64,000 nt of DNA from Entophlyctis helioformis. Taxonomy: Eukaryota; Chytridiomycota; Chytridiomycetes; Chytridiales; Chytriomycetaceae. A model generated the notes under the pieces. It did not search any database, was not told where the DNA came from, and saw only the letters and a list, made by a program, of their open reading frames with translations. The stretch lies in assembly GCA_025526915.1 (NCBI GenBank), contig JAHLKH010000057.1, forward strand, positions 1-64,000. The letters run 5' to 3'. Made by a program: the position numbers and the translations under genes. Below, piece by piece: positions 41,320 through 63,550 of this stretch (position 1 is the stretch's first letter; each line of letters begins with the position of its first letter).

Positions 41320-41363
41320 CGATTTCGTAAGATAGGCGAGGGGGGGGGGTAATTGATTTCGTT

Positions 41364-41399
41364 CCCATAGAGCACCCTGCGCCGGCACCTGATTGGCCG
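41364..41399 (+). repeat. 36-bp dispersed block, copy 2
   Basis: Matches 6934-6969 at 34 of 36 positions and is preceded by a run of ten G. It marks the left edge of the transposon-rich region and lies just upstream of RPA135. Read on the minus strand it places a CCAAT box in that promoter. Confidence 0.7.
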
Positions 41400-41839
41400 G
41401 CTGGTTTGCCTCGAATTTTGTTCAATTTGGCATCCAATTTCCAATCTTTTTGAATCCAATTTCATATTCTTGTCCGAATTCCCAGTCACTCTGAGCAGCC
41501 TGCAGTCGATGCCTTCTCAAGTCGTGGTCGCTTTGGCGCTTGCTTGTGGACTGCCGAGCCTGTCCAAGGGGCAGCAGTTGGCTGCGTGTTGGTAGTGTCA
41601 CCAAGAACTGTCCTGTCATTGCCTGTTGCAGCTGTTGGCCTTCTGCGTCCAGGCGGCCCTCTTGTGCGTGCTGCTGGGGCTGCCTGCTGCAATGTCCGAA
41701 CGACCGACGTCACAGGCGACACAGACGCACTGGCATCAGCTGCTGCTGGTATCTTCCGCTTGCTTGACGCTCTTTGGCGGCTGGCTGTTGGCGTGGCAGC
41801 TACAGCAACGGCTGGCTGTCCAGGCTCGTCCGCAAGGTC
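41400..41839. other. Left flank of the transposon, no gene called
   Basis: The first 80 bases are AT-rich, unlike the surroundings. A plus-strand open frame at 41626-41895 has hydrophobic runs (LLAFCVQAALLCVLLGLPAA), but no start context or family signal supports it, and it overlaps the tail of the minus-strand gene. Confidence 0.3.
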
Positions 41840-43240
41840 CTAGCCGTCGTCGAGCTTGTCAAGGCACACAGTGTCAACAGAGTCGCAACTGTTGACAGCC
41901 ATCGCACAAGAGGCAGACGAGCTCACCAACGAGGAGGTGGATGGATCACTCGGCGTATCGTTGAGCTGCCGCGTATCGTCGAGCTGCTGTAAGGCATCGC
42001 GCTTGGATTGGTCTGACATTGAGAACTGTCGAGGCGATACACACAGAATGCCTGCAGCAATTCTGCCCACTCATGTCAACCTCTGTCCTGGCTGCCTTTG
42101 TGTAGACAGCATACTCTTTCTGGATGGGATTGCTGATGGGGCCCCAGACAAAGATGTTGTATGATTTGTCGTAGGATGTGTATGTGCTGTTTGTGCAGTC
42201 AGTCTGCTGTGCGATCAGTGCATACACATCCTATGAGAATATCCTACCGGCATTTGCAGGATGGCTCAACAAGGAATCTGCGCTGATCAACATCCATCGA
42301 CCTGATCTTGAAGATGAGTTGCATCTGTCGCGCGACTGACATGAACTCTTCCAGGTCTGGCTTGTCATTCCGGCCCTTTCCAGTCCGTCGTAAACTGTCT
42401 CGCCACACGTTAAACAGCTGTGTCCATGCAATGGTTAGTGCTGATTGTCAAGGAGAGTGTGTTGTCTGCCCGTTTATAAGCTTACTTGCTCCACGGGATA
42501 GGACGTAAGCGCGCGACCATACAGATGTGTAAAGGTCGCCCCTTCTGGGACTGCAAACTCTGCATCTGGATCAAGTGTCACAAGCATGCCCAGATTCTGG
42601 TTGTTGGCTGCTGCAAAGACGCTCGTCTCGGCAAACTGTCGTGTGAGGTTTAGAAGTCAGTGAGCGATTGCACTGCTTAGTCTGCGTTGTGGGTGATCAG
42701 ACTTACCTTGTGATGATCGCGGTACTTTGCATAGTGCTCAAGGAGTTGGAGGACGCTGCTCTTGAACGAGGGATCGGATGCAATGCCATGCATCACGATG
42801 CCGGGATTGCTGGAATCTTTGAGGCACGGGAGCTTGACGAGAAGCTTGTCGATGCTGTCAAGAGGCACCACCTATACTTCACAGCCGCCAGGTTTCGCCT
42901 TGATGGCAAAAGCATGGACGTTGTTGTTAAGTCGTCTTGGCACGAAGCTTGTCAGAACCAAGGGGAGGCGAGACGGCTGGATGCATATGACGCCTTTACG
43001 CGGGCCATCTGTGAGCTTGACGAGTGGCAGCAGCAAGTATATTTGGTTCTTCTTGTCCACCAGTGTCATGCTTTCAAATGAACCATTGTTGCAGTGGAAG
43101 CACAAGCTGTTGTCTAGAAACTTCCCTGTTGGGTCGATGACCTGTGGGTCTGCTTGACTGGGAGCTGGCTCTGTGGTGGCTGCTGCGTCCATGTCGTCCT
43201 GCTGGTGCACGGCGGCATGTGGTGGCTGTTGCTCGTCCAT
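41840..43240 (-). pseudogene. Unrecognised multi-exon gene on the minus strand, in-frame stop
   Basis: No family recognised. Starts MDEQQPPHAAVHQQDDMDAA and reads NSLCFHCNNGSFESMTLVDK and NQIYLLLPLVKLTDGPRKGV. AFAIKAKPGGCEV is followed by a TAG (about 42872-42874), directly continuing in frame as VVPLDSIDKLLVKLPCLKDS. After introns it reads FAETSVFAAANNQNLGMLVT, LFNVWRDSLRRTGKGRNDKP, then DVYALIAQQTDCTNS. The last exon runs MSDQSKRDALQQLDDTRQL to a stop at 41840. All introns have GT-AG ends. The lone UAG makes this copy a probable pseudogene unless it is a base error. It shares the 28-bp-repeat promoter with the nuclease gene, suggesting a transposon-encoded partner. Confidence 0.5.
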
Positions 43241-43931: not shown

Positions 43932-46900
43932 ATGGGAGTCCCTGACTGGCTGCGACTCCTCAAGGAGTTTGGCTACGTCATTGTGTTCGGCGACGGTGCA
44001 AGCTTGTCCGACGCACTTTCCACGGTACTCGGAGAGGTCAAGCAACAGGCGACCCTGCCATCGACGACATGGACGTCGACGACATCGCTGTGGATGACAC
44101 CAGTGCAACTCCTCGACCGTCGCTGCTGCAGCCACCATCACTGCTGGACTTATATCCAAGGCAGCCACAGCTGCCAGCATCGCCGTTTTGACACCTACGG
44201 TTGCCACTGCCTCCTCTGCTGCCACCACCACCTCTTCTGCCCCATCTGCCGTCGCTTCTGATGGCACCAGCACCTCTGCGGCCACCAGCCTTTCGACGAC
44301 TGTATCCGCTGCCACCACCACCACCACAACCGCCACCACCACAACCGCCACGACGACCACCACAACCGCCACCACAACCGCCACGACCACCATCACCACT
44401 GCAACCACACATGAGTGCATCCAGTGTCATACATGTTGATGCACTGAGCATCTTCTACGGACCGCTACGTGGGCTGGCCGCTTTCCACCGGCCGTCGTCT
44501 GTTGATGAGTGGGTGACAATCGTTGCACCTGTTCTCAAGACGTTTCTCAAGTCGGTCGGTGACGGGCGGGTCCTACAGTTCCATGTCGATGGCAGGCTTG
44601 CCGAGACGGGAATCAAGCGCGCATATAGCAGCCGTGCTCTTCGAGTACTTCAATCAGTGGCCACCATCCAGAGATCCATCCACTGGCGCCGCAAGCATGG
44701 ACGGTCTGGACGTTTGTCTTGGTATGTCTGCCTCTTTGTGCTTCATACACATGATTCTAACTTTTAGTTGATGCTACAGGAAGGAGAGAAAGGCACTACT
44801 TGGCTCCTTCACTCTTACATGGTCAGACAAGAAGAACATTGCTGAGGCAATCGCGGCAATCCTCGGCCCATCGTCGCAACACACTGTCCATCAGTGTGAC
44901 AACGAGTCTGATGTCTGCATCGCCCGCAAGGCTGCCCTCTATGCACGCGAGCCAAGGTATTCATCACCATGGTATCTGTTGTTTATGATCAATGGCTGAC
45001 AACCTGCATCCCAGCAATGGCATGCCAATGGCTGTCATTGCTGGGGACTCGGACCTGGTTGTGCATTGTACTGGATGCTGCCCTGTCATCCTGACACGCA
45101 TGCAGAAGGGACATGTCAGCCAGGTCCGATTGTACAACTACAGTGGCGCTGCATCTACTGCAGCAGCCTTACGGTTGTACAACTTCCCCCTGGCATGTCA
45201 GCTGGCCGCCTCCATGGCCAAGAATGACTATCATGATTGCTACGGCGCGGTATGTTCATTGCATGACTCTGCTCTTGCTTGCCATCCATGTTGTGATGAT
45301 GACTAATGCACATTGCCACTCCCATGACATGGAAGGTCTACCTGCCGCTGTCAAGTTCATCAACAAGTTTGTCGAGGCTGCGGCCAGAAAGGCAGGCATC
45401 AAGCCGGTCGACTACTGTGCCCACCTCCATGACCGCGACAAGGCAGTTGCATTTGCAAATGCAATCAAGGATGCATACTGCAAGGATCTGTTGTTGCTGG
45501 ATGGTGGTGTGGCCCTCACCAAGAGCTTCCTGAACGCCTTTGGCGTTTTTGTCCACCACGATGAATCAGGAAGCTCTGTTGGTGAGACCACATCCCCATC
45601 CAGTCACAGCAGCCCATCTGGTGATGCACCAGCACAGAGGCAAGATTTTGTTTGACTGGTCATGGCATGGTGGCACAGATGCATTTGCATGCACAACACT
45701 CTACTGACTGTCCATCCCTACATGCCATTGACAGCAGCACAGCTGTTGGCACAACCACCACAAGGTACATATGCATGACATTGCTTGGTGTGTGTTGTAT
45801 AACTGACTTGGCATTCTGTGTTTGATTGGATTGCAATGCAGCTGCCGGCTACATCGCGACTGTGTTCTTGTTCACCCCAAGGCCCAGCAAGGCAAGCAAG
45901 GTGCTGATGTTGTCCATCTCTCCCAGGAAGATGTCAAGCAGCAAGTCAAAGGCATCAACACCAAGCGACTCGACACTTTGCTGGAACAAGTCAAGGGATG
46001 TCCAGTTGCTGTTGACTGTGTTCTGTTACACACAGCAGATCATGTCGCTTGCAACACCAACGGATTCACTGGCCGCGACGTTCTGGCAGAGATCAGCAAG
46101 ACAGCCAGTGCAGAGCTCATTGGGATTGTACGCGAGAAGTCTCCTGCAGCAGAAATGCACACCGAGTTCAACGAAGGAAATAAGATCATTCGTGATGGAC
46201 ATGTATGTTGTTGCATGACTGGATGCATGTGCATTCCTTGCCTTGAAACATCCCACTCATCCACTGCTTGTTGGACAGGATGTTGCATCAAAGCTGCGCA
46301 GACAGTTCAACAAGCTTGCATATCCACCATTTAGGAAGACAGCAACGCCAGGTACTTTGAGACTGCTGTTGGATGATGCCACACTCTGTACTCACAGCAC
46401 ATTTGTCTGAATGCGCCACTCTTTTGGAAGGTGGACGCAAGGGTCGACACCACCACCGGACAGGCATCTCTTTGAAAAAGCTCTCCAAATTTGTGGACAT
46501 ACAGATCAAGGCTTTGGAGTGGCTGGAACGCCTGACACATCCCATGGATCACGGCCTGCCTGATCTCCATCTGTCAACACTTGGCAAGAAGCGGGAAGAT
46601 GCAGTCGCCATTCTGGAATCAATCCTCAAGTGATCTGCTGTATGTCTTCAACTTTGCTTGCTGTGTATGGATGTGTTGACTTTGCACAGTCACTGATTTT
46701 ACATCCAACAGGCTGAGTTGGATGCATCCACTCCAGTTGGCCCCTCCCACAATGATCATGCTTGCGTGGCTGCCAGCAAGGTCTTGTATGTTGATCCATC
46801 TGCTGACAACAAGACAACGGTCAGTCCACATGCACTGTTTGTGATTTTGGACATATTGCACACAATGCTGATGGTGCATTGGACCTCAACAGGCACAACT

Positions 46901-47345
46901 CCTACTCTCAGCAACCAGGAAGGCCACGTACAAGAAGAACCGCAAAAAGGAAGCTGCAGATGCTGTGATCAACAAGACCATTGACAACAACAAGGAGAGT
47001 GCACGCCGGCAAGACCGCCAGACTGAAACAGCTGCATCAGAGAGTGACAAGACGTAAGTTGTGTATGCCACACTGCAATACTTGAAGATGCTTGCTGACA
47101 TGCATGTTATGCCACAGATGGGTTGCTGGGAGTCGATTTGCACTGCATCTGCAGCTCGAAAAGCTGGGCCGCACAATCACAGGATGGTTCATGACACTCG
47201 CTGCAGCCATCAATGGCAAAGTGCAACAAGCCAAGGGGAATGCATCTGATCAACACAATGAGGACGTGCTGGATCAACATGGAGAGGACATGCCTGACCA
47301 TCCTGGCATGCGAGTGCTTCTGAAGGTAAGTGGCAGGATTGCCAT

Positions 47346-47346
47346 T

Positions 47347-47381
<35 letters not shown>

Positions 47382-47406
47382 CCATTCTGCCTGCCTGCCT
47401 GCCTGC
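47346..47406 (+). repeat. TGCC tetranucleotide repeat in an intron
   Basis: About 15 units of TGCC with one interruption (GCCATTC), lying between the exon ending near 47323 and the one opening near 47450 in the transposon gene. Confidence 0.85.
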
Positions 47407-48784
47407 ATGGCTTTGCATGTACTGACTTGCAGGCTGGCATGGTGTGCAGGACATGTTGTCAAGTCACCTGCAGAGTGCCCCAGTCTTTGGTGTTCATGCA
47501 AGCAGGTTGCCGATGGGTTGGACACACTGCCAACTCATCGAGGACATCATCGCGCGGATCTACTCATTCACCGTCGGCATACGCCATGCTGGACTCATTG
47601 TAATCGGTGCCATCCTGGAGGAGCTTCTTGATCTGAACCCGGACATGCCACTTCCCCCAATGTACCACATATACGAGTGGACCCATGGAGAGCAGAGCGG
47701 GCATTGCTTTCTGAGTCTTGATAGCCTCAAGGACCTCGACGACATTGGCAACGCACTCATGGCCGGCCCATGCATCCTCGAGACAGACATTACTGCGCAT
47801 GCGATGTACGGCCCAAGTCAGTACAGTCGCAAGGGCAAGCTCCCTTCGTTTGGGTCACCAGTGCGACTATCAGCAGGAACGACACTCAAGCTTTGTCTCT
47901 TTGAGAAGCCTGACGAGCCAAAGACGCACAAGACGCCAAAGACGCAAAAGATGCCCAAGAAGCCAGCAGCCCCAGCAGCACCAGCAGCACCAGCAGCACC
48001 AGCAGCACCAGCAGTGCCGACACCCAATGACTTGCTGTCGATGCTCATCACCAGCAAGTCTGCTGGCCAGACATCTGTAGCCTGCATCCTGCAGCACCTC
48101 TCATTTGTCCTTACAGGCGAGCAGATGGCCAAGCCACGGGTGGATATGCTCATGCTCAACGCATGGCTTGTTACGTTTATGCAGCTCATGATCCACCGCA
48201 GCTGGACGCTGGCCAGCATGACCGACCAAGCTGCACCACCAGCCGACACGATCAAGGCTGACATGGACACTGGCGATGCGCAACAGGCAGGCACAATGCG
48301 GACCACCACACAGAAGGCCGAGATGAAGGCAGGCGCACGTCGACCGGCCAAGAAGCAGCAGACTCGTGTGCGGCATCTAGACATGTGGTGGGCAAGCTTG
48401 CTCCCAGCCGATGCACAGCAGGCCGACACACAGCAGGCAGCTGTGCCATACAGGCTTGTCAACACCTTGTGCGGGCTTGCAACCACTCAGATCTTCAGCA
48501 ACCTGGCAAGGGAGTTGAGCAGCACACTCGCTACACACTTTATCTCAAGCCGGTCGAAGCTTGTGTCGATTGCGGCCCACTGTGCGATGCCCACTGCAAC
48601 TTCCGAGCAGATTGCAGCATGGGTCAATGCCATGTTCAAGCCAGTCAAGACTACCAAGGTCGCCAAGCGCACTGCTGCCATGGACACTACATCCAGCCTA
48701 CCGACACGCAAGAGAGCAAGGTGCAAGGGGCCCATCAACAACCAAGAGAGTGTGGACGCCACCCAGGACGCTGCCCAGGATGTC

Positions 48785-48788
48785 GCTC
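48785..48788. repeat. Target-site duplication GCTC, left copy
   Basis: GCTC precedes the 5' LTR and recurs at 59253-59256 after the 3' LTR. Removing the element and one copy gives an uninterrupted reading frame (QDVA then PPALSLKRTA). Confidence 0.75.
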
Positions 48789-48904
48789 TGTCAACGGCCC
48801 GTATCCACGGTCGTTGGGTTCTTATGGCGTTTCGGTGTTTTACTAGAATCTTAACTTAACGATTGAAATCTACTACTACCAGCCCTCGTTCTGGAACTTT
48901 CATT
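48789..48904 (+). repeat. 5' LTR, 116 bp
   Basis: Starts TGTCAACGG and ends CTTTCATT; matches 59137-59252 throughout by eye. Unusually short for a Ty3-type LTR. The LTR 3' boundary could shift by one or two bases. Confidence 0.85.
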
Positions 48905-48972
48905 GATCCAACTTCTCAGGAACCGAACCAAGCACCCCACAGTGCTACAGTCTGACAACAACAACAAGCGAA

Positions 48973-50953
48973 ATGGACAACGACAACGGAAATGGCGACG
49001 TAGGTGGCACGGGCCGCCCCAACCGGTACGAAGCCGGCCACGATCCCAACGGTACGGACGAGAGCGAGACGACCATCACGATCCCCGCCAGCCTGCGCGA
49101 GGCAGTTGAGACTTTCCTGTCGGCCCAAAAGGAGGGGGGAGCCTCATCCACGGCAGGTGGCCCCATGATGAGTGGATCCACGATGGCCATCCCCACGGCG
49201 GCCAACCCCAACGACGCTCCATGCCACCACGGCCCTCGCTGCAGCACCGGTGCAAACAATGGCGCGTCTTGACCAAACGCAGGAGCACCAGGAGGACGTG
49301 GAGATGGCAGGAAAGGCGGCCAGGAAGGCAGCCAGGAAGGCAGCCAGGAAGGCAGCCAAGAAGGTGGCCATGGAGACGGTCAACGAGGAGACCAGGGCAG
49401 CGAGCGCGAAGGCAGCCAGGAAGGCGGCCAAGGAGGCGACCAGGAAGGCAACCATGGCAGCGGCCAAGAAGGCAGTCCAGGACGCCAGCGCCGCCAAAGT
49501 CACGGCGCGCGCAGCCAATGCGGCACTCGTGGCACTGCACCAGAGCGAGTCATCGGACGAGTCGGACCCAGGCAGCGTTACCACGCCGCTACGCCAGCGC
49601 AGGGACACCTTGGAGACCTGGCGCCCACTCGACAACCTGGACGAGTCGGGACCATCGGCCCTCCGCATTGCTCGCGACAAAGCCAACGACTACATCATCG
49701 GAGTTGGGCAGAGTGCGATGTCAAGCCGCCAGATAGCGCGTCTCGCGGAGTTTGTCAAAGCCACGGCCTTCGTCACAGCGGCCCCCTTCACGGACGCTGA
49801 GGCCCACCAGACCACCTGGACCGCTGAGCTCAACCAGATGAGGGCGAGGTGCATGGAAGCCGGCACCGACAGAGGCACAATCGACGCGACCAGCAAGGCC
49901 ATCGCGAGCATCGTCACAGCAGCCGCAATCGCCGACCTGAGACACGGCAGCAAGGCCACCAGCCGTAAGGACAGCCAGGAGACCCCAACGGAGCCAACCG
50001 CCAAGACAAACGGCAAGATCCCGGACATGGACAGGTCCAGGACACTGCTCGCAAACAAGTTTGGACTGGCCGCGACTGGGACCCCTCTCGCAGTGCGGCT
50101 TGTAAACACCATCGACGCGATCCGCACCTTCTGCCTGGACCTTGAGGATGTCAACATGGCCAAGGTAATCAGGCGACTCCAAGGCACAGTGCTCAGCATA
50201 GAGGCCAGGCGGAAGTTCCGGGCCCGCGTGGCGACCCTCACGCCGGCCAAGATGGCCCTCGTCGAATCGGACCTCGAGGCATTCATCGCAGAGCTCACGG
50301 ACGTCTTTGCCCCGGTACAACTCGCAGCCAAGGAATTGCGGGACGCGATCAGGAGCGTCAACGTAGACGACCAGCTGAACCTCGAAGAGACCCACTCGGC
50401 CCTGTCATCCTTGGTCGAGGCATGCATCCACCTCCAGACGCCGGAGTTTCCATTCAGCGACATCACGGACGCCTTTCAACGTTGCTACCAGCTTGTACCC
50501 AATTCGACCAACGATACCCTCATCTCGCTGGCGCTCAAGCAGAACCGCAAGTCCGGGGTCACCAAGGAGACGTGGTGGGACGAGGTGTCAGAGGCCGTCG
50601 CGTTCTGCGTCGGGGACCTCCCACACATGCGCGGCCGTGGCCCAGCCAGGCAGCCGGACAGCGGCGGTCAGAAGAGGTCGCGCTCCCGCTCACGCTCTCC
50701 CAAGTCCAGGCAAAATGCCAGCGCCAACACCTACACCAACACCAACACCAGCACCAACACCAACGTGAGACCCCGCAAGTTCATAGCAGGCTACTGCGAC
50801 AACTGTCTACTCCCGTTCCACCGTCGTGACGAATGCCCAGCGAAGTGGGACGCAATGCGCGTCAAGGCCAATGGAGAGGCCCGCAAGAACCCTCACCTGA
50901 ACTTGCCGACAAAGCAACCCGAGGAGTCCGACTGGTACGCCAAGTCGACCTGA
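48973..50953 (+). CDS. gag: Gag of the Ty3-like element
   Basis: The frame from ATG 48973 (MDNDNGNGDVGGTGRPNRYE) shifts near 49240-49260 into the long frame that ends at 50953. After the shift comes an Ala/Lys repeat (AGKAARKAARKAARKAAKK and variants, 49300-49480). A helical capsid-like region then carries KVIRRLQGTVLSIEARRKFR and later FSDITDAFQRCYQLVPNSTN. A basic Ser/Arg tract leads to a zinc knuckle CDNCLLPFHRRDEC (CX2CX4HX4C) near 50795-50840. The knuckle and position make the assignment firm. The shift may be an assembly error. Confidence 0.85.
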
Positions 50954-51450
50954 CGGGGTGGGCCGCAGACGCCAAGCAGCAGCACTCGCCCGACCGCTGC
51001 TCCGATCCTCGTTGTCTGCGATAGCCCTCCTCCTCTACCTCCGGAAACCGCCGAGCCACCGGCGCACCAATGCGCACCGCCTTCGGACCCACACACACAC
51101 CCGGACCGGCGGCCTCTCATACTGGCCCTCGACATCCTAAGCCCACCCGAGACCACACACGGGCGGCGGAAACGACTAAGGCACAGGCACGGCGGGATGG
51201 AGAGCCGTACCCCGCGCGATGACCAACCAGGCTCTGACAACGGAAGACCGAACCCCAGTAGCAGCGAGCGCTCCGGCCACCCTGATGCGAGAACCGCTGC
51301 AGCTGATGCGAGTCTGTCCCCTTTTGGAGAGGCGAGCCCTGGTGACTCAGGCAGCCAACCCGATTGGGAGGCGGACGAAGCGGACGCTGGAGGCAGGTGG
51401 GGCACAGGCCAGCCGGACTCTTGTGTAGATCTGGACCTCTCTCGATTGGT
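50954..51450 (+). other. Spacer between gag and the tandem repeats
   Basis: No recognised domain. The piece at 51287-51425 (ADASLSPFGEASPGDSGSQP) recurs in diverged form at 52118-52255, so the whole spacer plus repeats is probably an expansion inside the 5' part of pol. Confidence 0.5.
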
Positions 51451-52092
51451 GAGCACCGTTGCCGAGCAGGTGGCTGTGTGCCAACCAGTGCTGACAACCT
51501 CCTCCCCGATCTGGCTGCGAATGTTGCGTGCGCGTCTCGGGTGGTAGACCCGGACGACGCTGTGGATCCTGCTGCTCAGGTGCGCCTGTTGCCCAGGAGT
51601 CCTGTCCTTTCCGTGAGCACCGTTGCCGAGCAGGTGGCTGCGTGCCAACCAGTGCTGACAACCTCCTCCCGATCTGGCTGCGAATGTTGCGTGCGCGTCT
51701 CGGGTGGTAGACCCGGACGACGCTGTGGATCCTGCTGCTCAGGTGCGCCTGTTGCCCAGGAGTCCTGTCCTTTCCGGTGAGCACCGTTGCCGAGCAGGTG
51801 GCTGTGTGCCAACCAGTGCTGACAACCTCTCCCCGATCTGGCTGCGAATGTTGCGTGCGCGTCTCGGGTGGTAGACCCGGACGCGCTGTGGATCCTGCTG
51901 CTCAGGTGCGCCTGTTGCCCAGGAGTCCTGTCCTTTCCGGTGAGCACCGTTGCCGAGCAGGTGGCTGCGTGCCAACCAGTGCTGACAACCGTCGTCCCGA
52001 TCTGGCTGGAATGTTGCGTGCGCGTCTCGGGTGGTAGACCCGGACGACGCTGTGGATCCTGCTGCTCAGGTGCGCCTGTTGCCCAGGAGTCC
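51451..52092 (+). repeat. Four tandem ~164-bp repeats between gag and pol
   Basis: Units start GAGCACCGTTGCCGAGCAGG at 51451, 51615, 51779 and 51942 (periods 164, 164, 163); the last is cut at about 52092. Small indels between units change the reading frame from copy to copy, so the array is unlikely to be translated throughout. Confidence 0.9.
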
Positions 52093-52099
52093 GCCCCGA

Positions 52100-55000
52100 T
52101 CGGACCCGGACCGGCCTGTTGCGAGAACCGCTTCAGCTGATGCGAGTCTGCCCCCTTCTGGAGAAGCGTGCCCTGGTGACTCAGGCAGCCGACCCGTTCG
52201 GGAGGCGGATGAAGCGGACGCTGGAGGCAGGTGGGGCACAGGCCAGCCGGGCTCCCGTTCAGATCGCTTTGTTTCTAGCGCTGGCACTCGGCGGGGAGAC
52301 AGCCCCGGCCCAGCGGTTGCCCAGACCGCCACGACAGACCACGCGGCGGACATCCTGGCCGTCACGGTTGTGGCCACAACCGACCCCACATGGCCCGCAT
52401 CGACCGCCCCGGCCGAGGATTTGCTGTCGACAGCCCTCGGCTCCCTAGCACCACACACCGCGTCGACCGCGGACGTGACCGGTCTCGTCAACTCAGCCCC
52501 GACAAGCGTCGCATCCACACCAGAGGAGACCACACCCGCAGCGGACGCCAAGAAGGGAGATCCGTCCCCCGACACGCCGTTGCTCATCCATCAAGACTCA
52601 CTCAGTTCCAGCGACGCGGACGTCACGCCTATGGACGACAAGCCGACCCCAGCGATCGCGCAGGGGGTCTCGGCCACACCCATGCACCCGGCAGCGGCAG
52701 TGTTGGACAACGAAGTGCGCGCTCCGGATGCGTCGGTCTACTCAATCGCCGGCCCGTTGCCCGAAGCCGGGACAAGCCACAGCAGCGTCGACTCGTTCTG
52801 GAGCGACAGCGCATCAGCAACCTCGAGCTACACATCCGCGAGATCGGAATTTGGCGATTCGGATTCAACCCCGCGCAGCAAGGGCCACCGGTTGCGGCGG
52901 AAACGCAGGCAAACTGCCTGGTTGACCCAGCCGTCCTCGCCCAAAAAGAGAGAGTCGCACTCGAGCGGCCCCACGTCACACTCCGCATGGGACCAGCACG
53001 CCTCGCGGTGCAGATCGGGCCAGCAAAGGGCCGCCGCATGGTCGGCGCAATCGCGATCGTCGACTCAGGCTCTAGTGCGTCCGTGGTGTCCTTCCAGGTT
53101 TGCAAGGCGATTGGTGCACCCGTCCGGGAGCTGTTCAATGGCACGACGCTCACCGGCTTCGGCGGCACAGACGCAGTCACACCCCGGGGCACGTCACGCC
53201 TGACCATCAGGGTAGGCGACAGCACCACAACGATCGACGCGTTCGTGGTAGACCACCTCCCGCAGCTGTTGCTCCTCGGCACACCTTGGCTCAAAGGCGC
53301 CCAGGCCTTCGCCGACTTTGACAAGGAGACAATCACGTTCCATGGCGCCAGACGCCCGGCCAAGATGTCCCTACAGCGCGAAGACGGCCTCAAGTTCTCC
53401 TTCCCTCTCGTCACGGCTGAGAGAGTGACGATCAAGGCAGACCAGGTTGGCGACTACCGCATCAAGGTGACATTTCCCCGTGCGATGGCGCTGTTCCCGC
53501 TCAACAAGGAGGGCATTGCCCAGTCATCTCGCGACGTGATGGCCAGAAAGGGCATCACATTGGCCACAATGCCACTGGTCCCCCGGTCGACGGAACCCTT
53601 CGCGGCCGACATCCGGTTCCTCCCGCTGGACAAGGCATTGCCGGCGTTCGAACCGGACTGCATGCCTGCGGGCCGCAAGAAAGGCGCGACATTTGTCCTC
53701 CCGGCAGGCACGGTCGTGGGAACTTTTGCCCAGATCGAGTTCTCGGACTACCTGGTCATGCACGTCTCGGACGGCATGATGCCCCCGACACACTTGGAGA
53801 CACCGCAGGATGGACGCAGAGGCGACTCCGTCCCCGAGCTGCCCCAAGAATGGACAGACAACGACGGCTGGCCACCGGGGTATGCGCACAGCGACGACCA
53901 ACTCAAGAACATGTCTGCCGACCAGGTAACCCAGCTCAAGAGGTGCCTGCAGCGTTATCATCGTGCGTTCATCGTGGACAAGACCAAGATCGGCACGACG
54001 CACTTGGTCAAGGCCACCATCGACGTGCAAGGACACCCCCCGATCGCGGCGCTCAACCAGCGGCACAACCCGGTGCGCCGCGCGCAGGTGATTGAGCTCA
54101 CAGAGGACATGAAACGCCGCGACGTGATCGAGGAGTCGACCAGCCCATGGGCGTCGCCCATCGTGCTCGTACGCAAGTCGGACGGCAAGATTGCTTCTGT
54201 GTCGACTACCGACGGCTCAACGCGGTCACCAAGCCAGACTCGTTCCCCATGCCGCGCATCGACGACACCCTGGACGCGCTCGCAGGAAGCCAGTGGTTCA
54301 CCTCGCTCGACTTGGCGGCAGGCTACTGGCAGATCGAGATGGACGAGAAGGCCAAGGAGATGACGGCTTTGCCACGCCAACCGGCCTCTGGCAGTTCAAG
54401 AAGCTCCCCTTTGGCCTCCGCAATGCACCTAGCATCTTCAACCGCCTGATGGCCGGCGTGCTCCGTGGCTTGTGGTGGAAGTCGTGCCTTGTCTACCTGG
54501 ACGACATCATCGTGTTCTCCAAGACGTTCGAGGAGCATCTGGAGCACCTCGGCTGGGTACTAGAGCGGGTGCAAGACGCGGGGCTCACAATCAAGGGCTC
54601 GAAATGCGACTTGGCACAGCAAGAACTGATCTACCTGGGACACAAGGTGACACCCCAAGGCATCGCATGCGACCCCAAGAAGCTCGTTGGAATCGGCCAC
54701 TTCCCGGCCCCCACGGACGTCGGCGGCGTGCGCTCATGGCTCGGCGTCACGGGATACTACCGCCAGTTCATCGATGGATACACCGACCTGACAGCCCCGC
54801 TCACCAACCTGCTCAAGAAAGACGTTCCGTTCGTGTGGTCAGACGCATGCCAGACGTCGTTCGAGGCACTGAAGAAGGCGTTCACCTCGACACCTGTCCT
54901 CGCATACCCGGTCTGGGACCGGCCGTTTGTGCTACAGACCGATGCCAGCAACGCAGGCATCTCGGCGATCCTGGCACAGTACGGCGACGACGGATTCCCC

Positions 55001-57020
55001 CACATGATCGCGTGCAGCTCGCGGAAGCTTACAGAGACCGAGACTCGCTATCACATGACAGACAAGGAGGCGCTCGCGGTCATCTATGGCCTCGACAGCT
55101 ACCGCGCATACATCCTAGACTGGCCCCTGATCATCGAGACGGACCATGCCGCGCTGAAGTACGTGCAGACGCTGGGCGCTCAAAAGGGCGGCCGACTCGG
55201 CAGATGGGCGATCAAGATCGGCGAGTTCAACCCGGTCATCAAGCACGTGCGTGGTGTAGACAATCAGGCCGCGGATGCGCTTTCAAGGCAACCGGCAGAA
55301 CCTGCTCCCGAGACAACACCAGAGTACCTTCCTGCCGGCCCAGACTCACTCGGCCCGCCACCGCCGTTCCCGGCCCTCGAGGTCCCCATCCTGGCCGTCT
55401 CTGCAGACTCGACGACCTCAGTGGAGGTGCCGGCGACCTCTGGCACTACGGCTTGGCGCGAGCAACAGCAACGCGACCCGCTCTGCAAGTTCCTGTCAGC
55501 AGCAATCGCAGACCCGGCCCAGACAGCGGCGATGGCAAGACACCCGCGGACTTTCTGGGGGATCGGCGCACTGGACGAGAAGCTGACACGTGAGACGGCG
55601 GAGGCTTGCAAGCTCCTGCGCAAGGGCAAGTTTGCACTCGACCAGGACGGAATACTCTGCCGCGCGACGGACATTAGCTCAAGAGTGGACCCAGACACAG
55701 GGCTGCGGATCCCCACTCAAGAACCGTTCAACTGGATCGTAGTCCCGGCGTCGATGCGGCAGGCCGTCCTCCACAAGATGCACGACAGCCCGGTAGACGG
55801 CACCCACGTGGGACGCGACAAGTGTACAGCAAACACAGCGGCATCCTACTACTGGCCCAACATGATGCGCGACATCGCTCTCTACGTGCGCACCTGCGTA
55901 CCGTGCCAGCGGAGGAAAGGAGCCGAGCCGAAGCAACAGGGCCTCATGCACACGACCGACCCGCAGGGAGAGATCACCCGCCCAATGCAGCACTGCACAG
56001 CCGACGTCATCGGCCCGTTCCCCATCTCGCTCAAGGGCAACAGATACGCGCTGATCGTGGCATGTCACCTCACCAAATGGAAGATAGCGATCCCCATCGC
56101 AGACAAGGAGGCAACAACAGTCTGCCAGGCTCTCTACTACGGGGTCGTCACCCAGTTTGGCCCGATGAAGGTCCTGGTGACAGATCAAGGCAGCGAGTTC
56201 ACGTCCAAGGTCACTCGCCGCCTGGCACGGCGGCTACTGATCGACCAGCGATTCACGACGGCGTATCATCATCAGGCCGCCCACGGGGCAGAGCGTTTCA
56301 CCAAGTACCTCAAGGACGGGCTCAGCATCTTCACTCAGGGCGACTACCCGGCATGGGAACTGCCCATGCGATCCTTGGTCTACACGTACAACTGCTCCAA
56401 ACATGCGACCACCCAGTTCACCCCGTTCTACCTCATGCACGGCTTCCAGCCGCCGACGCTGACCCACCTCGACGGGGCGGACATGCAACCGGCGCTCAAG
56501 GAGGACGCGGTCAAGCACCGCCTGGACATGCTACGCGCACTGCATCTCGCGCGGGCTCTGGCCGCCAAGCACATCATGGATCGACAACAGCAGTGGGGCA
56601 CGAGGTACAACCAAGGCCGAAAGGACGCAACATTCGAAGTAGGCGATTTTGTCCGGGTCTGGGCTGACGCCCAGGGCCGACCAGGGCAACCCAAGAAGTT
56701 CCGAGACTCTTGGCGCCGCGAGTGCATAGTCATCGAGGTGCGGCCCCACTCCAACTACGTGGTCCAACCACTGGGAGACGATCAACAACCCCACGAAGGT
56801 GGCCCGCGCCGCGTGGTCAACATCAAGAAGCTCCGGCCATTCTTTGTTCGGCAGGAGGACCCCCAACAAGATTTGGAGATGGAGGATGCGTCGACGGTCA
56901 CGGGTAGCGCGCTGTCTTTGCTGACCCAGCCGACCACGGTGACAAGTGCAGCGGCCGACCACAGTTCGCACGATTCGACAGTGTCCACAGGGGAACTGGA
57001 GGTGGCAGGAGGCCTGCTGT
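52100..57020 (+). CDS. pol: Pol polyprotein of the Ty3-like element (PR-RT-RH-IN)
   Basis: The N-terminal Ser/Asp-rich part leads to a retropepsin ([12 protein letters not shown] and LLLLGTPWL, about 53055-53290). The RT has [48 protein letters not shown] and the YLDD box [13 protein letters not shown] (54190-54530). The RNase H shows [14 protein letters not shown] and [13 protein letters not shown]. The integrase has the HHCC zinc site ([11 protein letters not shown], then CVPCQRR) and DDE residues in [21 protein letters not shown] and [14 protein letters not shown]-like C-terminal module reads [13 protein letters not shown]. Frame changes near 52915, 54190 and 54367 are single-base. The stop at 57018-57020 is created by the nested insertion; the original tail is at 58964-59100. 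Confidence 0.92.
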
Positions 57021-57285
57021 AGTACTGGGCTGCCAGACGGACTTGCCGGCTGGTCTCGGGGCAGTGAGTATGCACGCAGGGGAACGGCGGGCAGACGACT
57101 ACTTCATTGGGAGGCAGCACAGACCTGGTCTCGGGGCAGTGAGTATGCACGCAGGGGAACGGCGGGCAGACGACTGCAAGAACGGGGGAAACCAGAGCGG
57201 CCGGTGCGGCCCGACAATGTCTGTCCGGTCACGTGGGTCACGTGGATCACGTGGATCACGTGACCGCGACCGAGCATCCGTTACA
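57018..57285 (-). repeat. LTR of the nested element (left)
   Basis: 268 bp, nearly identical to 58691-58958. It contains two tandem copies of a segment starting GTCTCGGGGCAGTGAGTATG (period about 72), and a CACGTG array at 57230-57262. Confidence 0.88.
57230..57262. promoter_or_regulatory. Four CACGTG E-boxes at 9-bp spacing in the nested LTR
   Basis: CACGTG at 57230, 57239, 57248 and 57257. The second LTR (about 58903-58935) repeats the array. Looks like a bHLH-factor binding array driving the element; function is inferred. Confidence 0.6.
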
Positions 57286-58690
57286 CTCCCCCCAGCGTAG
57301 ACAGCCACTCATAAGAAAGAAGAGTGGATGAACAGCGACTAAGAGGATGCATGGGCGTTGCACACACAAGAAGCAGAGGTGTGGGCAACAATGGACGCGA
57401 AGGACACAGGACGGGGAACCGTGCGCACAGAGCAACAAGGAGAGAGAGAGATGGAGTGGATGGAAGGGGAAGAGATGGAGAGATGGATTGGATGGAGGGG
57501 GGAGAGATGGAGAGGTGGCTTGGATGGAAGAGGGAAAGGTGGAGAGGTGGACAGATCAGGGCCGAGAGGGTGAACATGGTCAACAGACACATGAACAGGT
57601 GGACAAGCCGGATGGTGCGGCGATCAGGATGGAAAGGCAACAGCAGCTGCGAGATCGTGCCGGTGGTGACCGAGCTGACGTGCATGGCCGTGTTGGTGTA
57701 AGCTGATCCGAATGTGGTCAGAGCTGTACGGTGTAGGGTGGCGGCTGATGGCTGGTCAGGGACGCAGTGTGGGTTCAAGTGGCGATCCAAAAGGGATCCC
57801 ACCCCAGACTCCTCTCGCAAGAGGCACCGAGCATGGCCTGGATACCCGGTCCAGGAGCTGATGCTGAGCTACAGATGTGCAACGTGCTGGGGCCGGTGTC
57901 TGCAGGCTGCGGCCAATGGATGCTGATGCCGAGACCAATGGCGGCTGGGTGGCTGAGGCGGCTGATGCTGCCAAGGCCGAGGTGATGAACGCGCCCGTCG
58001 ACGAGAACATCGTGCTGCAGAAGCAGCGAGGCACAAGCCGATCCAGTGGTGGTTGATATGGCGGACAATGCAGCTGTGGCAGATGCAGGCCGTGCCGTGC
58101 TGAAGCGAATGCCGATACTGACGTGCTGATCCAGATGTGGTCAGGACTGATCGGCGTGGTTGTGGCGGCTGACGAAAGTTGCAGCGGTGCAGTTGAGGGT
58201 GTAAGTGGTGATCGACTGTGGATCCCGCCCCAACTCCTCTCACAGGAGGCACAGAGCATGCCTGGAGACAATGTCCAGAAGCAGATGCGGCGACAAGCAG
58301 GTGGAGCTGATGCTGGCGAGCGAGCTGATGCCGGCAGATATCGAACCATGCGACGGAAGGCAAGTGTGAGGCGGCTGTAAAGAGGCATTGGATGCCAGAG
58401 CCGGTGGGTGGATGACGACACTGCCCACTGCCAGCTGCTGACCAAGACGCATGAAAAAAAGTGCGCTGGTGCACAGCGGCAAGTGTCGACAAGCGGATGC
58501 CGCGAGAGCACAGGAGCGTTGAGACGAGGACGTCCAGTGTGCAAGACTCGAGGCGCAACTCCGCAGGGCCTGGGTGGCAAGACTGCCGACCGCCAGCAGG
58601 CCCTGGTTCCAGCCGAGGCAGCAGAGGCGGCGAGGATGTCCAGCCAAGCTCACCAATGCTGCCCCGACCGAAAAAAAGTTGGGTTCTTGC
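57286..58690. other. Interior of the nested element, no supported gene
   Basis: Holds a GGAGAGATGGA-type purine repeat (57440-57560) and two diverged copies of a roughly 280-base segment (about 57700-57990 and 58120-58400, both with CTCCTCTC..AGGAGGCAC.GAGCATG-like blocks). Open frames exist on both strands but have low-complexity, repeat-driven composition. Confidence 0.5.
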
Positions 58691-58958
58691 TGTAGCACTG
58701 GGCCTCCAGGCGGACTTGCCGGCTGGTCTCGGGGCAGTGAGTATGCACGCAGGGGAACGGCGGGCAGACGACTACTTCATTGGGAGGCAGCACAGACCTG
58801 GTCTCGGGGCAGTGAGTATGCACGCAGGGGAACGGCGGGCAGACGACTGCAAGAACGGGGGAAACCAGAGCGGCCGGTGCGGCCCGACAATGTCTGTCCG
58901 GTCACGTGGGTCACGTGGATCACGTGGATCACGTGACCGCGACCGAGCATCCGTTACA
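58691..58958 (-). repeat. LTR of the nested element (right)
   Basis: Matches 57018-57285 with a few substitutions near its left end. It ends CATCCGTTACA and is followed by the CCTGC target duplication. Confidence 0.88.
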
Positions 58959-58963
58959 CCTGC

Positions 58964-59100
58964 AGCCCATGGACCTCGGATTGATGCCTATATTGGACGA
59001 GGCGGAGCCCGCGGACGTCCGGCGGCGGAACCCGCCCCGAGCCGCGCGACGCGTCCGGGCCACAGATCCATACCCAATCAGGCGCTTCGGCGCCAATTAG
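58964..59100 (+). CDS. Pol C-terminal tail cut off by the nested element
   Basis: After removing the nested element and one CCTGC, the pol frame runs on without a break into QPMDLGLMPILDEAEPADVR and ends PYPIRRFGAN with TAG at 59098. This confirms the nested insertion site to the base. Confidence 0.75.
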
Positions 59101-59124
59101 GATCCCTCGGTTACTCGGTTTTCT

Positions 59125-59136
59125 AGGAGGAGGAAG
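59125..59136 (+). other. Polypurine tract of the Ty3-like element
   Basis: AGGAGGAGGAAG immediately before the 3' LTR, the position and composition expected for plus-strand priming. Confidence 0.85.
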
Positions 59137-59252
59137 TGTCAACGGCCCGTATCCACGGTCGTTGGGTTCTTATGGCGTTTCGGTGTTTTACTAGAATCTT
59201 AACTTAACGATTGAAATCTACTACTACCAGCCCTCGTTCTGGAACTTTCATT
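59137..59252 (+). repeat. 3' LTR, 116 bp
   Basis: Copy of 48789-48904, followed by the GCTC target duplication at 59253-59256. Confidence 0.85.
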
Positions 59253-61256
59253 GCTCCTCCTGCCCTGAGTCTCAAGCGGACTGCATCACAGCTGCTGCTG
59301 GCCACTGATGGCAGCACATCCAAGAGGCCAAAGGACAAGACTGCTGCCACAGATGCCTCGCAGGCCACACCACCAGCCACACAGGATGGGGATGCTATCA
59401 AGATCCCACAAGAGCTGCATCCGATTCAGGCGATTGTGCGCAGCACGTCAACATCAGACATTTGTAAGTTCAAGGAGCTCTGTGATCTTGCAGGTGGCAC
59501 AGCCATCAAGTTATGCCCAGAGCCAGCCAGCTGCGACCCCTTTGTCCTCATCACAGAGACTACCCTCTTTTGGGCTGTGATGGGGACAAAGAAGGATCGT
59601 GTACCCACCAAGGACAATGCTGTCCTCCAAGCACTGAGAGAGCAGCTCCTGGCTGCACTTGGTAGGTCACATTTGTCTATGCCATGCCAATGCCATTTGA
59701 TGCTAACACTGCACTGTGTTCCAAGGCTACAATGATGCCGAGTTGGCCCTTAAGTTGCCAAATGACCTGATTGAGAAGGCCTTCAGCAAAAGCAAGGAGC
59801 TGGCCATCCTCGACATCCTCCTCCCTGGACTCGCCTCGGATACACGTCGCTTCCAAACGCCAGCTGAGGCCAAGACAGAGATGGACACAGCTAATGCCCA
59901 GGCTGAAGCAGATGCCACAGCCATGGCAATGCTCAAAGCTGATCGTCTCAAGCTGGATGATGAGCAGCGCAAGAAGCACATTCAGGCTGCGATTGATGCT
60001 CTGCCACCAGCACGACCAACCAAGGCAGTCAGACTGGGCAGCATCAAGACTGATGGATACAGCATCTGCCAGACAGTGTTGGACTTTTGCACAAACCGTC
60101 CAGAGTCGCCTCGCAGTATGTGGCGTGCTTGAATGCTTTGGTGCACACATGAATTCTGACTGCTGCCTTGCTCTGCATACTCCAATCTGATGTCTTCAGG
60201 CGAGCAGCCGTGGGTTGCTCATGATGACGATGACTTGGATGATGGCTTGGATGATGGCTTGGATGATGGCCTTGATGGCACATGTGAGTTGCTGTGCCAA
60301 TCCAGACACGTACTTGTTGTCCACACCAACAAACATGCCATCCACAGCCGCCAATCCAGCCAACCCGTCAGCCACCAAGCCAAAAGCAACCAATCCTGTA
60401 AGCCACTTGCATGCCAACCTCGTGCATTGGTGCACATGCACTGCACATTCCTCACTCATGCCATGGCATGACAGGGCAAGCTCAGCTTCTACGCCTCGCA
60501 GCGATTGCATGACATCATCAAAGCCAACAACCTGTTCACCAACAAGGGCTACCAGACTGTTCGCGTTGTCAGCTTTGATTGGGGCCAGCGGTACCTGTAT
60601 GGCGCGTCCAGCATCTTGGTCGATCTCAGAGACTTTTCGTATACCCTCGAGTCCAACTACGTGCTCTCCTCTGGCATGGCACGAGCTGAGCGTGACCTTC
60701 AGCGGTGGTATGCATGCAATGACTCTGCCACGCGCACTCTTGACCAGATCAACTCACAGTGCCTGCCTCTTGTGCCAGGCTCAACAATTGATATGCCAAG
60801 GCAGCTGACATCCAGGCGGCCATTGCATTCAAGACAGCAAAGCATGCCGATCCAAACGTCAAGCCTGGCGAGAGAGCCTTTTGGGATCTGCGCTGCCATG
60901 CGTACTGCACGCCATTCCTGAATGCACGGGTACGTTTTCTCTGCTTCTGGATGTCCATTGCCATGACCGCCAAGCTGCTTGATTGCCTGCTGATCACACT
61001 GGATGGCATGGCGTGGCATGGCATTCCACAGAAGGTCAAAGCCAAGCGGTTTGCCATGCGCAGCAACAGCATGTCTGATCGCGGAAACGCTCTTGAGGGC
61101 ATCATAAAGCTGGCAGGCTCGACCACTAGATATCGCGCATCTCGTGCATCTCAAGGCCGCTGTGACAAGCCAACAGAGAAGGACATCCCTGTTGTATGGG
61201 CATTTGGCATCGACTTTACAGGCCAAGGTGGCCGGCATGCTGTGTTTGAGAGGTTT
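59253..61256 (+). pseudogene. TnpB/Fanzor-like RuvC region, 3' part of the interrupted transposon gene
   Basis: The exon at 59253 reads APPALSLKRTASQLLLATDG, then ELHPIQAIVRSTSTSDICKF. After an intron (from GTAGGT near 59662) comes YNDAELALKLPNDLIEKAF and a helical Lys/Ala/Glu-rich segment. An acidic repeat DDGLDDGLDDGLDG lies near 60239-60280. The exon from about 60474 has KLSFYASQRLHDIIKANNLF, then TVRVVSFDWGQRYLYGASS, where the Asp fits the first RuvC acidic residue. After a frame adjustment near 60795 and an intron (about 60931-61032) it reads KVKAKRFAMRSNSM. It then reads VVWAFGIDFTGQGGRHAVFE, almost identical to the exon near 7126. An LTR element interrupts at 61257, removing the catalytic Glu, third Asp and zinc ribbon in this copy. 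Confidence 0.65.
60237..60282 (+). repeat. Short tandem repeat coding an acidic DDGL tract
   Basis: GATGATGGCTTG-type 12-bp units, at least three, in frame with the transposon gene. Confidence 0.7.
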
Positions 61257-61350
61257 TGTAACGGATGCCGCCGCAGTCCCGTGGTCACGTGACCTGCTGG
61301 CATTGATCTGGACGCGCCTCGCCCGGACTTGGCTTGGCCCTGTTGTTGTA

Positions 61351-61469
61351 GTTGTATCCAGCCGTAAGCCTGTATACTCACTGCCCCTCTGCCACCAGGT
61401 CTGTGCCTGAGTCTCAATGAAGTTGTATCCAGCCGTAAGCCTGTATACTCACTGCCCCTCTGCCACCAG
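61351..61469 (+). repeat. 71-bp-period tandem repeat in the second element's LTR/leader
   Basis: GTTGTATCCAGCCGTAAGCC and the following 28 bases occur at 61351 and again at 61422. Two tandem copies. Confidence 0.85.
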
Positions 61470-61569
61470 ACGGCCAGCCGCTCTCGACGAGGACAGTTAC
61501 AACAACAACCAACGCCACCGACGCCGCCAGCCGCCGTTACCTGCGGCGTCGAATTCTTTTTGTGCGCCT

Positions 61570-63493
61570 ATGGGCCTGTCTCGCACGCCCACCCCTGGCG
61601 CCGGCCCTGCCGGCGCTGCGGCCGACGCCGACCCGGACGCCAACAGTGCCTTGTTTGTCTCGCCAGGCACCTCATTCGCCGACGAGCCGTCACACCTCCT
61701 GCATGGGTTTACGGGTAACTCTACCATCTGGGCTGATAGCCGCACGCGTGATTCTGGGCTTGGCTCCATGGCCAGCGGCATGTCTGCATCCCGCCTCCCT
61801 CAGGCTGGCTCTCGTGGCCGCCAGGGTGCTCCATCGGGCAATGCAACCTCTGCAGTGGCCTCCAGCACGCCCGCGTTTCGCCACTCCTCTGCCGCGCCTC
61901 GGGGCGGCGGAGGTGCTCTGTTGGGCGGCGCGGGCGGCTCGCATGCCTTTCCCGTCCACTCTGTTGGCGCCGCGTCCGCTTCTGTGCACCAGCTGCAGGA
62001 TTCGGCCAGCGAGGACGTCCGGATCACACTGGATGACCACGCCGCATCGCTGTCTGCGGTTCAGGTCTCCATCGAGGACCTGCAGACCCGTCTGCATGAC
62101 ACCCACGAGCTGCTAGCCCAGCAGGCGGACTCTTTCACCACGTCTGCCGCGTCCAATGAGGAGCGTCTGGCCGCTCTGTTCAACTCGGTGTCAGCCAACA
62201 CGGCAGCCGTGCGAAACTTGCAGACGCAGGCCACCAAGACCGTGGAATCGATGATCGCCCTTAGCAAGCAAGTTGCCTTGGCCCAGCAGTCTGCGGACAA
62301 GGCTGTCGCTGCCACGGCTGCCTTGCAGGCGTCGCGTTCGGCCCTCGCGATTGGGTCCTCGGTGGACGCACGCCTGCCAGCAGCCGCGGACGCCCGTGCA
62401 CCAAACCTCGCCAAGGTTTTCACAGACTGCTTGGGTGCCAAGCAGGTACCATTCAGCGGATTTGTGATGACCAAAGGCCCGGCTCCCTCAGTCGACTGGA
62501 ACGCCACTCACAAGAACCTCAAGCCATTTGTCATTGCAGTCGGCGGAGCATACAAGGAAGCCTGCACCACTGCCGGCGTCGACGCGATCCCATTAGGCGC
62601 CATCTTCTCGCTACTGCTGCCTTATTTCTCTGGCCGCGCACTCGAGTTTGTCACCGCATGGCACGAGTCGCATTCTGCCGACGATGATCTGTTCACGTTC
62701 CCTCAGTTCCTCGCCGACCTCCAATCGCTCCACCGCAACCCAGAGCGGATTCGCAACCAAGCCGAAGGGAAGCTGGCGAGCCAGTTCAAGCCGACGCTGT
62801 GCCATGGCCGCGCCCCGCAGGATTGGATTCTGGAGGCCGAACCGCTGTTCAGCGACGCGGGATACACGGACGACCGGAAGCTCAGATTCCTCCGTGCCCA
62901 CATCAAGGATCTGCCCCCAGGGAAGTTCAAGACGTATGCCGCCCTCCGCGACGCGTTCTTTGAGGATCACTCAGAGGCAGCCGAGCACGCCCTGGAGACT
63001 GCCGCCGCCACTGCTCTGGCAGATGCCCACAAGGCCCTGAGGCCCAGTCAAAGCCCAGCTCTGGCAAGACAGCTGCCGCGTCGCCGCGTTCTTGGAGTTC
63101 CTCGTCGCCCAAAGCTGCCACCCCCGCGCCTTCAGGCAGCAGCAGCGCGTCTGAGACGCGTAAGGCTGCCTCGCCCGCTGCGACAGCCGACCATGCCAGC
63201 CGATCGCCTAGCCAGCGCCCGCCCCACTCTAAGGTTGGGCGCATCGCGGCAAAGGCCAAGGCAACCGGGTACGTTCGCTCGCCCCCTCTGGCTCCTCCTG
63301 CTCCTGCGGCTAAGCACGCTTCGGCGGCTAAGCCTGCAGCCGCGTGTAAGCCCAATGCTGACACCGAATCTCCATCGGTCCCTGCCCGTGACGACGGCGC
63401 ACCAGCAATGGCTCCGGCTCGCAGTCGCTCGAAACCGTCTCGTCGTTCTCAGACGACGGGACCCAGTACAGCGACGCAGATGAAGAAGAGTGA
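61570..63493 (+). CDS. gag: Gag of the second LTR element
   Basis: Starts MGLSRTPTPGAGPAGAAADA (an upstream in-frame ATG at 61417 lies in the probable LTR). A Ser/Ala-rich N terminus is followed by a heptad-rich coiled coil (VQVSIEDLQTRLHDTHELLA, with HELLAQQADSF at its end). The capsid-like region reads FVIAVGGAYKEACTTAGVDA, PYFSGRALEFVTAW, NQAEGKLASQFKP and RKLRFLRAHIKDLPPGKFK, ending near 63030. The frame changes near 63040 and again near 63410 if the acidic tail DADEEE with a stop at 63491 is correct. No zinc knuckle is visible, so it may lack one or lie in another frame. Confidence 0.8.
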
Positions 63494-63550
63494 CCCATTG
63501 GGTGGTGTTGCGAATAAAAAGATGCCCTCCGCGGCCCCTGATCACCCTGT

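Follow-up and report, generated by a model that had tools for sequence, protein, structure and literature searches.

A chytrid DNA transposon with a putative fusion of an XPG-like and a Fanzor-type nuclease

The first 64,000 nucleotides of contig JAHLKH010000057.1 of the chytrid Entophlyctis helioformis (C57:1-64000, hereafter the window) carry exons resembling XPG/FEN1 nucleases, followed on the same strand by exons resembling the RuvC nucleases of the TnpB/Fanzor family, and the locus raises the question of whether both sets belong to a single transposon gene, as an original prediction made from the sequence had proposed. Examination of further copies in the host genome (29.6 Mb in 482 contigs) points to a DNA transposon of about 10 kb, with GAGGGG terminal inverted repeats (TIRs) and target duplications of 9–10 bp, in which a Fanzor-type nuclease is probably fused to an XPG-like nuclease. 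The predicted protein would begin with a 5' nuclease of XPG/FEN1-like type and end with a RuvC and zinc-ribbon part, the two being separated by a middle region with no assigned fold; a second, divergent gene occupies the 5' end of the element. While the presence of Fanzors in fungal transposons is already known, the fusion of an XPG-like domain to a Fanzor-type protein appears to be new.

Linkage of the two halves

The peptides on which the prediction was built are present in the window, both for the N-terminal set (MGVPDWLRLL at 43932, HVDALSIFYG at 44432, CDNESDVCIAR at 44895, VIAGDSDLVVH at 45034 and AKNDYHD at 45217) and for the C-terminal set (FDWGQRYLYGAS at 60574 and VVWAFGIDFTGQGG at 61191, with MCPQC at 7361 and YHRDVLG at 7445 in a fragment near 7 kb). 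Twenty stretches of at most 10 kb, several of them interrupted by contig ends or inserts, were taken around independent zinc-ribbon matches of the same genome and searched by tblastn with the exon peptides of the window. XPG-like exons were found in 9 and Fanzor-like exons in 16 of these stretches, with only the last exons in another 4/20, and the order of the window was kept, so that the pairing recurs beyond chance. The same association is seen genome-wide in the 150 listed of 233 matches to the XPG-like part, which group into 92 loci, and the 150 scored of 205 candidate matches to the Cas12f1-like_TNB zinc-ribbon profile (PF07282), all of which exceed the cut-off of the profile and one of which lies at 7322–7477 of the window. 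A zinc ribbon on the same strand is located 4.9–8.3 kb downstream of 45 of the 92 XPG-like loci, whereas the 3.5–9 kb range holds none on the opposite strand and, for the same strand, none upstream. Nine of the remaining 47 loci have a same-strand zinc ribbon 9.5–12.9 kb downstream, as expected for copies with inserts; the window copy is also among the 47, because its own ribbon lies about 23 kb away, behind two inserts, and many contigs of the loci that remain unpaired carry no listed zinc ribbon. The family is multicopy, with a fixed order of the XPG-like and then the Fanzor-like part.

Whether the two parts are read as one gene was addressed through the spliced alignment of 17 copies, plus the two pieces of the window copy, to a composite protein reference of 1,759 residues. 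A stop that might separate the halves was looked for in the other copies, and with this first reference one appeared close to residue 675, as a possible gene end, in eight out of ten copies spanning the joint; copy L026 lacks it. Five stretches of the reference resembling introns were cut, leaving 1,655 residues, and stops within insertions were penalized; the figures given here come from this corrected run. The recurring stop sits in an intron of 73–85 bases, with +5G donors in 10/10 and YAG acceptors in 9/10 placed cases, and for this reason it is not read as the end of a gene. When introns of the same phase within 10 residues are counted as shared, eight introns around the joint are present in 77 of 92 copy-by-intron checks. 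The strongest, at model residues 459 (10/10), 579 (10/12), 630 (13/14) and 700 (15/15), account for 48/51 checks and have +5G donors in 10/10, 10/10, 12/13 and 13/15 placed introns, respectively; introns 574 and 579 leave a tiny exon between them and may be one longer intron. Toward the C-terminus, introns 1241, 1371, 1447, 1498 and 1585 are found in all covering rows, and intron 1374 in 17/18. In the long exon from residue 700 to 1241 the middle region passes into the Fanzor-like part in one frame, which extends over 618 amino acids in copy L028 and, in copy C38, over an exon of 1,749 bases with no stop. Copy C38 (also X027), one of eight full copies and flanked by a perfect 10 bp duplication, has no frameshift and no stop across both halves. 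The shared introns bridging the joint and the open reading of C38 thus lend support to the single gene proposed originally, and the main gene is likely to encode one predicted protein of about 1,700 residues, with XPG-like, middle and Fanzor-type parts.

Purifying selection acts on both halves. Nei-Gojobori estimates of dN/dS, obtained from pairs that share copies and are hence not independent, range from 0.17 to 0.43 in the XPG part (median 0.28; 41 usable of 45 pairs, four being saturated), from 0.25 to 1.03 in the middle region (median 0.48; 104 of 105 pairs, one above 1) and from 0.30 to 0.86 in the Fanzor part (median 0.51; 166 pairs). Among the 28 pairs of the eight full copies, median dS is 1.5–1.6 in the XPG part, near saturation, and 1.1–1.5 across the middle region and into the beginning of the Fanzor part; it falls to 0.8–0.9 up to residue 1371, and then to 0.26, 0.12 and 0.11 toward the 3' end. 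The first alignment run showed the same picture for selection and dS, and in the gene at the 5' end pS between copies is 0.07–0.12. Divergence along the element is therefore U-shaped, with ends that are nearly identical among copies (dS about 0.1) and an XPG part near 1.5. Both ends have thus been homogenized around an old core, which may reflect concerted evolution or the exchange of terminal modules; a pattern of this kind would be expected from breaks followed by repair copying at the termini, and from ordinary exchange between copies as well.

Nature of the two nuclease-like halves

In the N-terminal half, the seven metal-binding acids of the XPG/FEN1 type are conserved as VD, FHVD, the E and D of EAD, both D of DSD and the D of DY, which we take to match the FEN1 positions. 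Aspartate occupies six of these positions in all 9–10 covering rows, and glutamate the seventh in 8/9, with one lysine. The succession VD, FHVDG..GIK..R, EAD, DSD and DY presumably follows the XPG order, and an MG(I/V) start, as in the candidate first exon, is typical of XPG/FEN1 proteins. The Pfam family XPG_I_2 (PF12813) matches the EAD-DSD stretch in four of seven rows, in three of six rows of a second alignment and, at E<1, in five of six proteins (one composite) of a third run, with a best E-value of 3.4e-4 for a composite and of 7.6e-4 for a single copy. In a comparison with an EXO1/XPG profile the register is the right one, with DSD aligned on DSD and DY on DY; when one XPG sequence of the host was used instead, the profile comparison gave no match. 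PF00867 (XPG_I) was also tried as a genome-wide marker and was dropped, the only loci it matched being three others. The best reading of this half is a putative XPG/FEN1-like 5' nuclease.

The C-terminal set had been assigned to the TnpB/Fanzor type, and this assignment holds. The PF07282 zinc ribbon is matched with an E-value of 1.6e-12 (47.8 bits, cut-off 26.3), and the NCBIfam family guided_TnpB (NF040570) with an E-value of 4.9e-7, the latter over the C-terminal piece only and, at 29.4 bits, below the full-length cut-off of 100. Furthermore, the Fanzor motif given in the excerpted text of Bao and Jurka, D-X(125,275)-[TS][TS]-X-X-C4 zinc finger-X(5,50)-RD (PMC3627910), is present in all 17 copies that reach it; the spacing from the RuvC-I aspartate to TS is 185–191 in 15 of them, the other two not being picked up by the spacing pattern. 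The catalytic aspartates are found in 17/18 copies for RuvC-I (with one gap), 18/18 for RuvC-II and 17/17 for RuvC-III, and the four cysteines in 17/17 covering copies. Matches to this part in the nr database were five E. helioformis proteins, and an AlphaFold2 model of one annotated fragment (P0003), which is without the zinc ribbon, reached a pLDDT of 44, too low for a confident fold. A search of viral contigs with the Fanzor part gave 91 pattern stretches, none of which was confirmed. At the 3' end of the element, none of 45 base pairs covaries among nine sequences, which are too alike to show covariation, and an Rfam scan of the window gave no match.

The transposon, its relatives and its possible mechanism

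The homology among copies stops sharply at GAGGGG...CCCCTC, which form short TIRs. Element-end matches numbered 85 candidates for the 5' end and 207 for the 3' end, 40 of each being scored, and from these lists 15 pairs of ends were matched: seven spaced 9.7–10.3 kb, six longer (12–27.5 kb) and two shorter. Target duplications were scored by eye, with the element start allowed to vary for C22 and C13. At least 8 of 9–10 bases are duplicated in six pairs (C38 and C22, 10/10; C178, 9/9; C3, 9/10; C95 and C13, 8/10), while four others show 7/9 (C121, C312, C14 and C331) and amount to two pairs of copies with shared flanks. The remaining 5/15, the window copy included, have no duplication. MuDr-type transposons generate duplications of 9–11 bp, and duplications of this class together with TIRs are what the chytrid element displays. 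A profile search for the MULE transposase domain (PF10551), the one transposase family searched, gave no match in the E. helioformis genome, its control being positive in 3/14 genomes. The second gene, which yielded no Pfam match at E<0.05, has pN/pS values of 0.33–0.87 over its tested exons (10 pairs among five copies), indicating mild purifying constraint, and is a candidate for the mobilizing function of the element. A search for an autonomous partner by shared 5' end yielded three stretches, each running to a contig end; of the two that were scanned, one has XPG-like exons and the other only the 5' part. In some pairs among copies L009, L010, L012 and L021 the homology ends about 50 bp before CCCCTC, at ATCGGGCC, which suggests that some 3' ends are eroded or of an alternative type.

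Among known DNA transposons, those of the Academ group have a nuclease of the XPG type. In the excerpted description of this group, AcademX has the nuclease and AcademH a helicase (PMC10045372); the chytrid element resembles Academ in being a DNA transposon with an accessory nuclease, and AcademH in the length of its duplications (9 or 10 bp), but differs from AcademX, for which duplications of 3 or 4 bp are reported, in its 9–10 bp duplications and its Fanzor-type RuvC. The closest counterparts on the Fanzor side are the fungal Fanzor1 elements of MuDr type, ROr-4, PBl-3 and MCi-4, which, according to PMC3627910, make duplications of 9 bp and lack a MuDR transposase of their own. Like them, the chytrid element is a fungal DNA transposon encoding a TnpB-like protein with the D-X(125,275)-[TS][TS]XX-C4-X(5,50)-RD motif, and its genome gave no MULE domain; unlike them, its protein, with about 1,700 residues in the model, additionally includes an XPG-like domain and a middle region, and the element has a second gene. 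The split of RuvC around a zinc ribbon is shared with the RNA-guided Fanzor/TnpB nucleases as outlined in the excerpts of PMC10711439, whereas the chytrid protein differs from these in general in that no guide RNA and no PDB sequence match were found for it and in that it scores below the full-length TnpB cut-off. From the XPG_I_2 proteins (PF12813), the best-matching XPG family, the N-terminal domain differs in falling below the cut-off and in being part of a transposon protein. The earlier remark that no Fanzor with an XPG domain had been described agrees with the literature collection searched by titles and abstract starts, which yielded no description of a Fanzor-XPG fusion; the one paper there that pairs TnpB and XPG concerns, as far as its abstract start goes, Cas12a, and "fused" in the excerpts of PMC10711439 refers to tags.

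Several results weigh against a single protein with two nuclease modules. The gene structure is a prediction from genomic sequence, the model was corrected after the stop had been seen, and the aligner may place introns to skip stops. Introns 318 (6/10), 338 (9/10), 486 (6/9) and 574 (8/12) are the weaker ones around the joint, with poor donors at 318 and 338, and seven of the eight full copies contain frameshifts or stops (1–7). Only 45 of the 150 zinc-ribbon places are paired with a listed XPG-like match, and tblastn with the peptide of the candidate first exon matches no other copy. Protein searches gave no fused protein: nr returned only short annotated fragments of 272–332 amino acids, and neither the full-length protein nor a profile of the XPG part was matched among 8000 scored candidates each. 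Low dS at the ends, finally, can also be given by ordinary recombination between copies. The dependence on genomic sequence and the lack of a fused protein in the searches, together with the stop that the first model shows in eight of ten copies and a 3' block much younger than the XPG part, would suit two adjacent genes in one transposon that only the splicing model joins, one for an XPG-like protein stopping within the middle region and the other for a Fanzor. That stop, however, lies in 10 copies within a short stretch whose splice signals are good, and is missing from L026, the four strongest introns span the joint in nearly all checks, and the middle region shares one frame with the Fanzor N-terminus in the long exon, which makes two separate genes quite unlikely.

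The identity of either half may be questioned as well. PF12813 always remains below threshold (20.6 bits at best, against 24.2) and leaves two of the tested copies, L026 and that of the window, without a match; PF00867 is silent on the transposon family, the three loci it matches in the genome lying outside it; and the EXO1/XPG comparison has a probability of 2.2%, with a score of 21.18 against 20.82 for the best of 60 column shuffles. A PDB sequence search with both halves gave nothing relevant. That this half is no relative of XPG/FEN1 but some other domain whose acids happen to fall in a similar order is nonetheless improbable, given that PF12813 recurs over EAD-DSD in 4/7 rows and 5/6 proteins and that the acids from VD to DY, with the GIK..R element between them, are invariant or nearly so. 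As for the C-terminal half, no guide RNA signal is seen at the 3' end, the last 187 bases of which fold like shuffled sequences (z of -0.44), the middle region has no assigned fold, and PF10551 is absent from the genome although the duplications are MuDr-like. These features leave some room for a RuvC half that is no longer a guided nuclease and acts as a transposase or DNA-binding part, but the near-complete conservation of its three RuvC acids and four cysteines renders this unlikely.

For the fusion of an XPG-like and a Fanzor-type nuclease, a mechanism can be drawn from the known behavior of Fanzor/TnpB and FEN1/EXO1 enzymes. The Fanzor half would make a guided break at the site vacated by the element, or at an allele without it; the XPG half of the same molecule would trim 5' flaps or chew back the 5' ends of the break; and repair would then copy the element back. 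This cut-and-resect role is the leading mechanism, and a tentative one. Its most complete version, in which one polypeptide combines RNA-guided cutting with 5' end processing, taking its guide from the element's 3' end and leading through resection to repair copying, must be considered doubtful. If true, however, the fusion would be a eukaryotic homing device with built-in resection, and would account for homogenized ends around a divergent core. Fanzors are under development as compact editors for use in eukaryotes, and the reason for their presence in transposons is still to be explained. A fusion to a flap or 5'-end nuclease that has arisen naturally, been amplified and stayed under constraint would give a direct, testable hint that the guided break is meant for resection and repair copying. 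Such a protein would also be a cutter-resector available from nature. Attention is further drawn to the enzyme by which this transposon family is mobilized.

The window copy

The copy in the window is one DNA transposon extending over C57:41338-68803, and the limits of 43932 to 61256 first proposed for it were too narrow (Table 1). It is broken by two inserts, and its own zinc ribbon lies beyond the window. The insertion originally mapped across the gene exists, with a length of 10.5 kb, but its boundaries are corrected to 121 bp direct repeats at 48789–48909 and 59137–59257 (99% identity), the second of which overlaps the start of the following exon. Position 61256, taken at first for the end of the gene, is where the second insert begins. 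The fragment near 7 kb that was to supply the second cysteine pair is present and is dispensable: the RuvC exon resumes at 67921 and the zinc ribbon extends to about 68.25 kb, so that the fragment is not required to complete the protein.

Table 1. Features of the window copy and of a detached fragment (positions on C57).
Feature	Position	Strand	Basis and remarks
5' terminus and 5' TIR, GAGGGGGGGGGGTAATTGATTTCG...	41338..41500		Homology with other copies begins here; 40 scored of 85 candidate genome matches
Second, divergently transcribed gene, exons	42247..43240	-	Open frames on to ~41490; frames conserved in 4 copies
Candidate first coding exon, MGVPDWLRLLKEFGY...	43932..44036	+	MG(I/V) frames chosen by eye before the VD exon, 5/9 copies
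XPG-like nuclease exons	44432..45253 (44435-44721, 44780-44956, 45015-45253)	+	Spliced alignment; VDALS, FHVDG, ESDVC, DSD, NDY
Middle exons joining the halves	45336..47325 (45336-45581, 45738-45789, 45842-46202, 46279-46351, 46431-46629, 46777-46819, 46893-47053, 47118-47325)	+	Small exons uncertain
First part of long exon, where the middle region passes into the Fanzor-like part	47450..48788	+	Runs up to the LTR-type insertion
Inserted long terminal repeat (LTR)-type retrotransposon, not belonging to the gene	48789..59257		Bounded by the 121 bp repeats; by eye, reverse transcriptase/integrase in frame 54128-57022
Fanzor-like exons	59208..61256 (59208-59661, 59726-60115, 60486-60707, 60779-60929, 61032-61256)	+	TDG motif, RuvC-I FDWG, RuvC-II VVWAFGIDF
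Second insert, within RuvC-II exon	61257..64000, on to 67920		Copy resumes at 67921 and ends at 68803
Piece detached from another copy, limited to the block of RuvC-II, zinc ribbon and RuvC-III	7123..7507	+	PF07282 at 7322-7477; 91-94% identity to the block in 14 listed copies

An intron placed by the aligner at 48339–48407 is taken as spurious, because the frame from 47426 to 48859 is open. The improved gene model has in-frame stops at 45776, in the middle exons, and at 60789, in the Fanzor-like exons, an earlier one having placed frameshifts at 45664 and 46405 in place of the former; with these stops and two inserts, the window copy is dead.

The inserts have features of their own. Within the first LTR-type element, about four repeats of 163 bp (97% matches) are arrayed at 51448–52092, and close to its 3' end a 272 bp direct repeat is found at 57015–57286 and 58688–58959 (98.5%); pieces similar to the latter occur in other element copies, and it is perhaps a smaller nested insert. 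The second insert has a gag-like frame, identified by eye, at 61411–63483; parts of it recur at 96–99.6% in L010, L012, L016 and L024, and its first 245 bases also in L074. In the detached fragment, the RuvC-II/zinc-ribbon block (7082–7507) shares its reading frame with an adjoining short tandem repeat of CCATCAACGTGC, within an open frame from 6997 to 7527.

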